DNA of 21,311 nt from a virus: the IMG/VR virus record IMGVR_UViG_3300025168_000810, positions 1 through 21,311 of that record; one strand, 5' to 3'. A program made the position numbers and the translations under genes. Shown piece after piece: positions 16,244 through 17,618 of this stretch. The notes under the pieces are model-generated. The model searched no databases. It was not told the origin of the DNA and saw only the letters and a list, made by a program, of their open reading frames with translations. Position 1 is the stretch's first letter. Every line of letters starts with the position of its first letter.

Positions 16244-16590
16244 ATTATTATTAAGTTTTTGTTATTAGCTTCATATTCTTTTAACATATCTTCCGTTAAA
16301 TTATATGAATAAGTTCCTGTTATATTATATATTGTATCATCTGTACACATCTGTCTTTCTGTACCAACCATTATAACAGAATTCCAACCTGATTTTATAT
16401 CTGCAAACTTTTGGTTTAAAGTATAATCATTTTCTGCTGAAGCGATAGTGCCTTTGTAGTAAACTAACTTAGCTTGTACAATTCTATCATCATAAGTTAA
16501 TAGTCTTTTTTGCCTTTCTATTTCTTGTTGCTTTTTCAATTCAACTAATTCTTCGGTAGTTAATGGGGTAGGTTTAGGTATTCTATCCAT
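16240..16590 (-). CDS. Hypothetical protein, 116 aa
   Basis: Pro/Thr/Glu-rich N-terminus ('PKPTPLTTEELVELKKQQEI', probably a short coiled helix) and a mixed beta/alpha rest ('KLVYYKGTIASAENDYTLNQ', 'IMVGTERQMC', 'YNITGTYSYNLTEDMLKEYE'). No known motif. ATG at 16590 overlaps the stop of the 41-aa frame (AATGGATAG), suggesting coupled translation with it. Confidence 0.65.
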   Translation of the reverse strand: MDRIPKPTPLTTEELVELKKQQEIERQKRLLTYDDRIVQAKLVYYKGTIASAENDYTLNQKFADIKSGWNSVIMVGTERQMCTDDTIYNITGTYSYNLTEDMLKEYEANNKNLIII

Positions 16591-16708
16591 TTAATTTATA
16601 TATTTTAAGGTTACCGACTTCTACTTGATAATCTTTTAGGTGTTTTATCCATTGATTATATGTAGGTTTTTTTGTTGCTTGTATTTTTTTTATTCTCATT
16701 GGTTTCAT
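16583..16708 (-). CDS. Hypothetical 41-aa basic protein
   Basis: Frame from ATG 16708 to TAG 16583, a Lys-rich peptide ('MKPMRIKKIQATKKPTYNQW', then 'IKHLKDYQVEVGNLKIYKL'). It is the first gene after the promoter/RNA element and its end overlaps the next start by eight bases, giving a natural operon start. Leader upstream is A-rich (AAAAACAAAAACT). Very short, so moderate confidence. Confidence 0.6.
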   Translation of the reverse strand: MKPMRIKKIQATKKPTYNQWIKHLKDYQVEVGNLKIYKLNG

Positions 16709-16724
16709 AGTTTTTGTTTTTATT

Positions 16725-16807
16725 AAAAAAGGGGGAGTTTTGATTTCTTAAACTGCTGCTTTCTCTGTAGGTTGGATTGCTTGGTTTATATTCTTTTACC
16801 CCCTTTT
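16725..16807 (-). ncRNA. Possible structured leader/small RNA with terminator-like end
   Basis: On the minus strand AAAAGGGGG (16807-16799) can pair perfectly with CCCCCUUUU (16735-16727), followed by a T-run (six T). About 63 bases lie in the loop, including a possible hairpin AGUUU...AAACU. The promoter at 16814-16843 would start transcription within a few bases of the 5' arm, so the RNA's own 5' end would form the closing stem. It may be a self-terminating ~85-nt RNA or an attenuator before the early operon. No ATG or reading frame is seen inside the loop. Confidence 0.5.
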
Positions 16808-16813
16808 GTAATA

Positions 16814-16843
16814 CAAATATACTAAAAATAATCTAATTAACAA
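16814..16843 (-). promoter_or_regulatory. Bacteroidetes-type promoter (TTG-N19-TATATTTG)
   Basis: On the minus strand TTG (16843-16841) is followed after 19 bases by TATATTTG (16821-16814), matching the Bacteroidetes primary sigma consensus TTTG/TAnnTTTG at the usual spacing. It lies in the only large gap (after the phosphoesterase stop) and faces the early/replication genes. Start of transcription would be about 16806-16810. No comparable match was seen in other intergenic gaps. Confidence 0.75.
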
Positions 16844-16895
16844 CTATTTTAACAGAATATTTAACAAAAAAGAAAAATAAAAAGGTTTTACTAGA

Positions 16896-17618
16896 TTATA
16901 AAGGCATTAAAAGATTTAATGGAGTTTGTCCATTATTTAGGATAACTGCACAACCAACAGCAGGTCTTTTACCATATTTTGCGTAAGCCATAGCATACGA
17001 CTTGTGATTTATACCACAGCCAACTTGTGTTCCAAATACTCTAAAATTCTTCCCAACATAGTGTTCTGTATAACATTGTGTATGTAAATGTCCTTGAACA
17101 GTATTCATCATATCTGCTCTACATTTTGTTCTTGCAGTACCACCTTCTCCATGAATATACTGCACATTGTTTAATTCGTATCTTTCTACAAAGTTCCAAT
17201 TAGGAACTTCAAGAACTTCTTTGTAAGATTTAATCCACTTACTAGGGATTGCACTTGTTTGTGCCTTTCTCATTATAATTCTATCGTGATTACCAATAAT
17301 GACTGTTGCTTTTTCAAAAGCACTATACCATCTTGATATACGTTTAATAGCTAATTCTAGTTCATCTAAGCCACCCATTCCATCAGCAGAGGTTTCGTGG
17401 TAGCTTGAATAGTGATTGTCTATTACATCGCCTATAAACACTACCTCTGTGCAATTATAGGTGTCATACTGTTCTAAACACCAATCAAGATAAAAGTCAA
17501 GACAAAAAGGTTCGTGCAAATCTCCTATTACTAATACGTTACTGACTTCTTGCTCTCGCAGTTTTTGTATGACCTTTATCTCATTAGGTTTTAATCTGTA
17601 TCTATTACTTCTTTCCAC
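16896..17618 (-). CDS. Calcineurin-like metallophosphoesterase
   Basis: 240 aa. The metal-binding motifs are all present in order: GDLH (32-35), GDVIDNH (63-69), GNHD (109-112), a single His at 156 ('YIHGEGG') and GHLH (176-179). Such enzymes use two metal ions to hydrolyse phosphodiesters or phosphomonoesters; phage versions may act on nucleic acids, nucleotides or host signalling molecules, and substrate is unknown. It starts with GTG at 17618, overlapping the membrane protein gene by 14 bases; no in-frame ATG precedes the first motif. Its stop is followed by a gap with the main promoter. Confidence 0.92.
   Translation of the reverse strand: MERSNRYRLKPNEIKVIQKLREQEVSNVLVIGDLHEPFCLDFYLDWCLEQYDTYNCTEVVFIGDVIDNHYSSYHETSADGMGGLDELELAIKRISRWYSAFEKATVIIGNHDRIIMRKAQTSAIPSKWIKSYKEVLEVPNWNFVERYELNNVQYIHGEGGTARTKCRADMMNTVQGHLHTQCYTEHYVGKNFRVFGTQVGCGINHKSYAMAYAKYGKRPAVGCAVILNNGQTPLNLLMPL

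Follow-up and report, generated by a model that had tools for sequence, protein, structure and literature searches.

A conserved structured RNA element predicted at the 5' end of an early transcript in flavobacterial phages

The stretch of viral DNA analysed here (IMG/VR record IMGVR_UViG_3300025168_000810, 21,311 nucleotides, referred to as the window) carries its main genes all on the minus strand, namely portal, endolysin and metallophosphoesterase (16896-17618) genes followed by an operon with SSB-like and replication-initiation genes; the site described below lies between the metallophosphoesterase gene and this operon, and all features are given on the minus strand. The pattern TTG-N18-20-TAnnTTTG has five matches in the window, of which only the one at 16843-16814, an early promoter of the Bacteroidota sigma-A type (TTG-N19-TATATTTG), is both on the gene-bearing strand and outside genes, in line with the first-pass annotation that had called it the only clear promoter of the window. 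The sigma-A box TAnnTTTG of Flavobacterium psychrophilum occupies positions -12 to -5 (PMC9723704), which places the predicted transcription start (+1) near 16809, the predicted transcript beginning with ACAAAAGGGGG. The first gene of the operon (41 aa, 16583..16708) is preceded by an ordinary A-rich leader (16709..16724) that resembles the leaders of motif-free related phages. Three TGTTAA hexamers with a 12-bp period (16837..16866) lie upstream of the promoter, the last of them overlapping its -33 element. An exact 12-bp period of TGTTAA-like hexamers upstream of the early promoter is also observed across 63 relatives, where pairs are 12 bp apart 31 times, 24 bp apart 20 times and 36 bp apart 9 times; shuffles yielded no TGTTAA-like pairs at 12, 24 or 36 bp. 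This array is perhaps an activator or repressor array, or a set of iterons.

From about +3 of the predicted transcript, the sequence AAAAGGGGG (16799..16807) pairs perfectly with CCCCCUUUU (16727..16735), the two arms of this stem, P1, being 63 nt apart and the second one being followed by two further U at 16726-16725. It is the only 9-nt inverted repeat of the window with at least 5 G+C and a loop of 40-90 nt, such arm pairs occurring on average 0.025 times in 40 dinucleotide shuffles of the window. RNA folding, one of the checks proposed with the first-pass annotation, reproduces the same stem (-14.9 kcal/mol, z = -2.2), so that the transcript's own 5' end would indeed form one strand of it. 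No open reading frame of at least 40 aa covers the stem region on either strand, and the statement that no coding frame explains the site therefore stands.

What had been taken for a terminator loop is a conserved folded domain that the earlier annotation missed. The whole motif, from P1 to P1 (16727..16807), is a segment of 79-85 nt. Helix P1 closes its ends and encloses helices P2-P4, an internal loop rich in A (AAAGAAUA / AGAAAYCA) and a conserved loop. In the window, the 5' side of the internal loop is UAAAAGAAUA with the conserved AAGAAUA (16789..16798), and its 3' side is AGAAAUCAAAACU with the conserved AGAAAYCA (16736..16748). Folding and covariation define P1 as well as the P2 arms UAAAC (16784..16788) and GUUUA (16749..16753). 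Folding and comparison with a copy from another phage (copy B of locus L554, GG/CC at this place) define the P3 arms, GC (16779..16780) and GC (16758..16759). Folding and conservation define P4 with its terminal loop, UCC-AACCUACA-GAGA (16762..16776). The sequence of P1 varies with the phage: GGGG/CCCC, AGGUUCGA/UCGAACCU or UUAAGAG/CUCUUAA, and AAAAGGUUCGA/UCGAACCUUUU in the L048 copy.

Two protein searches gathered 160 loci of related marine phages, and a long leader occupies the early-promoter slot in a few relatives. The window and loci L113, L199 and L217 have a common inner sequence of regularly spaced AAGAAUA, AACCUA, GAAA and AGAAA, and each of the four folds separately into the same architecture. 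The covariance model R1, for which only L199 and L113 were used (the latter being the same phage type as L336) and hence not the window, recovers the window with 34.8 bits (E = 2e-5 in 155 kb); the model R3, in the building of which the window was included, recovers it with E = 2e-13. R1 also matches L048 (1.4e-17), L217 (1.3e-13) and L342 (1e-6), as well as L572, L564 and L478. A pattern scan for AACCTAACCNNNNTGGAAA added L478, L549, L554, L564 and L572; L554, a phage distantly related to that of the window, contains two tandem copies, and its copy B is 84% identical to the window's copy. In this way 12 copies of the motif were located, spread over 11 distinct phage sequences. The real family was recovered by scans with inner sequence; scanning for TTTG followed by G5/C5 or G4/C4 arms returned mostly chance matches in G+C-rich contigs. 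Among the results of the arm scans are L163/L181, L173/L186 and L168, Bacteroidota-type phage leaders (4540-4640 in L163) that resemble the motif in their outer stem but are not matched by its models, and in which the predicted 5' end closes a G5/C5 stem over a different inner sequence; they possibly represent a further class of RNA built on the same outer plan.

The motif family is absent from Rfam 15: no family reached the gathering threshold in the window and nine carrier loci, and the site itself gave no match up to E = 5. Model and pattern searches behind a strict prefilter in up to 395 Flavobacteriia and 395 Bacteroidota genomes revealed no credible copy, the sole weak model match in bacterial genomes lying inside a coding gene. 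Cultured phages and plasmids did not match the motif, and the literature searched, in partial coverage, contained no flavobacterial phage leader RNAs.

Covariation across phages, an analysis also proposed with the first-pass annotation, supports a conserved structured RNA. Among the 12 copies, which are few and whose relatedness was left in, 20 of 21 base pairs change on both sides somewhere, and in the alignment, fitted to the model structure, standard pairs fill 93.6% of cells versus 33-62% in slid controls. The covariation score is 0.64 versus 0.23 in shuffles, with none of 500 shuffles as high, and the alignment from the two-sequence model (L199 and L113) agrees on covariation. Compensatory changes are present in P1, P2 and P3; between the window and L554 copy B, for instance, matched changes turn G-C into A-U three times in P1 and C-G into G-C in P3. 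Relatives lacking such changes in the two arms of P1 had been named as the result that would speak against the stem, and the changes are strongly present. Column identity is 69% for unpaired and 54% for paired positions. Conservation of AACCUAACC/UGGAAA is partly due to ascertainment, since this was a selection criterion of the AACCTAACCNNNNTGGAAA scan; GAAUA, AGAAA, P1, P2 and P3 were not selected there. As matched changes on both strands of the stems preserve the fold in unrelated sequence contexts of other flavobacterial phages, the 5' segment of the predicted early transcript is, judged by sequence comparison, a genuine conserved structured RNA element.

Nearly all relatives possess a promoter of the TTG-N19-TATATTTG type at the same slot, followed in nearly all of them by a plain leader of 23-38 nt without a stem (e.g. 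TACTATAATTAAAAAACAAAAACAATG), even where the metallophosphoesterase is up to 95% identical. Compared with these relatives, the window therefore has about 80 additional nt, which separate +2 from the usual A-rich leader, and the element is not a part of the promoter, because the nearest relatives carry the same promoter without it. The copies of the window, L336, L217 and L572 are located behind the metallophosphoesterase gene at the early promoter, and those of L199 and L564 at the start of an operon behind a different phosphoesterase-like gene. The L478 copy starts an operon that, as read from its sequence like the two operons mentioned next, has ParB-like and apparent 7-deazaguanine genes. 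The motif-led operon of L585, the phage of L478, has apparent QueD-, QueE-, FolE- and DpdA-like genes, which suggests 7-deazaguanine DNA modification; the operon led by the motif in L564 has recombination-type genes. Although found by a promoter-free pattern, the copies of L478, L549, L564 and L572 are directly behind TAnnTTTG. In most promoter-linked copies P1 begins about 2-9 nt past the predicted +1 (about 20 nt in L572). Directly behind the motif, the first genes differ in all carriers and are mutually unrelated, and the only protein families found common to all carriers are core phage genes.

Most copies lead operons; the others are inside RNAs with their own terminators. The L048 copy is found inside a non-coding RNA of about 490 nt with its own promoter and terminator, after which a new promoter serves the next gene, and the L342 and L554 copies precede a strong hairpin-U-run terminator among structural genes. 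Non-coding RNAs of about 450-550 nt with their own promoter occupy the same slot in L048 (1205-1720), L056 (745-1285) and L055 (2050-2600); they share a conserved 3' domain, GAGGAATTGCAATTCC...AGCGACCTCTACAA, end at a terminator in L048 and L056, and have no match in Rfam. At the place where the L048 RNA contains the motif, that of L056 has a different hairpin. In L083 and L087, a compact hairpin, GGGGGUGUAAAAACCCCC, is located between the first two early genes.

With a probability that we put at about one half, the motif is an independent early small RNA or RNA domain that would bind a factor and does not serve as a switch for a single gene. The RNA's own 5' end forms one side of the closing helix P1, compensatory change maintains the helices, and the unpaired stretches are conserved as sequence. 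The unpaired stretches would bind a host protein, RNA polymerase, the ribosome or another RNA, and P1 may protect the RNA ends; in the window, the early mRNA would begin with this RNA, which partial termination at P1-U6 or processing would set free. An independent RNA is favoured because the following genes differ, which makes a switch for a particular gene unlikely, and because some copies belong to transcripts with their own terminator; for the latter reason the discrete RNA of about 85 nt proposed in the first-pass annotation is plausible, though not with P1 as a conserved terminator. Against an independent RNA, L336, L478 and L564 contain nothing obvious that would release it from the mRNA. 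More specifically, and only tentatively, the motif may define a phage-specific family of small RNAs, made as the first early product, that captures a Bacteroidota factor (polymerase, ribosome or RNA-binding protein) and thereby takes over or protects early phage expression. A possible interaction of CUAACC with the D-loop of tRNA (GGUUAG) was discarded, as it is not preserved in the window or in L554 copy B. Bacteroidota phages are abundant in the sea and the gut, and to our knowledge little is known about how they control early transcription; a compact, strongly covarying RNA with conserved loops at the 5' end of an early transcript provides a handle, in the form of a defined sequence, base pairs that can be disrupted and repaired, and a bait to recover host partners.

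By analogy, the motif could instead be a nascent-RNA antiterminator that folds on exit, binds RNA polymerase and confers terminator resistance along the operon. The put RNA of HK022 acts in this manner, binding the zinc-binding domain of the RNA polymerase beta' subunit and suppressing termination. Like putL (PMC9378689), the motif measures about 80 nt and sits immediately downstream of an early promoter, P1 starting at about +3. Its presence does not depend on the first gene, it is modular, being missing from closely related phages with the same promoter, and a terminator follows just downstream in L048, L342 and L554. However, no strong intrinsic terminator was found over the 2.4-4.5 kb that follow the motif in seven carriers with an early operon, the window among them, motif-free relatives retain the same operon, and both fold and covariation indicate one irregular hairpin, whereas put RNA is defined by two stem-loops in about 70 nt (PMC9378689); we consider this role doubtful. 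A cis-acting 5'-UTR element, in which the closed 5' end together with a protein bound to the RNA would stabilise the operon mRNA or set its translation, accords with P1 starting about 2-9 nt past the predicted +1 in the majority of copies linked to a promoter, and with seven copies in which an unstructured, A-rich leader separates P1 from a start codon 19-40 nt further on. It is nevertheless unlikely given that the L048, L342 and L554 copies lead no gene and reside in terminated RNAs, and that P1 of L572 begins well past +1.

It is improbable that P1 and its U-run end most transcripts at about 85 nt with some signal permitting read-through, the role of terminator or attenuator assigned in the first-pass annotation. 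That assignment holds for the window as far as a G+C stem followed by U6 is concerned, and the stem is followed by U10, U10 and U6 in L199, L217 and L572 (7 U in L048); as a conserved role it fails, for L336 has a single U at this place, L478 has no U-run and that of L564 is interrupted. Moreover, the length of the U-run (range 0 to 10) follows that of its pairing partner, the 5' A-run, the loop of P1 is large (about 60 nt), and a standard-terminator scan of the window does not list P1. An inverted repeat that arose by chance, or a small insertion bounded by terminal inverted repeats, in either case with no RNA function, would agree with the patchy distribution and the clean junction relative to motif-free relatives, but is already contradicted by the compensatory changes in all helices, the conserved internal loops and the constant sense direction behind a promoter, and is most improbable.

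Comparison with known systems places the motif as follows. It shares with intrinsic terminators and attenuator leaders a G+C stem followed by U in several members, and differs in that its U-run is not conserved and that, in place of their short loop, 63 nt in the window form a conserved folded domain. With HK022 putL/putR it has in common a phage RNA of about 70-80 nt behind an early promoter, independence of the first gene and a patchy occurrence within a phage group; it differs by its single long irregular hairpin closed on the 5' end of the RNA in place of two stem-loops, by the lack of terminators found downstream in the window and by its Bacteroidota hosts. Riboswitch-type 5'-UTR aptamers likewise combine covarying helices with conserved nucleotides that stay unpaired within them, ahead of a start codon, but the motif is not attached to a single gene family, its downstream genes being unrelated in all carriers, some copies lead no gene, and no Rfam entry matches. 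With the candidate structured RNA motifs of comparative genomics (PMC2864571, PMC8040213) the motif shares the type of evidence, covariation together with conserved loops; it is matched by none of the Rfam 15 families.
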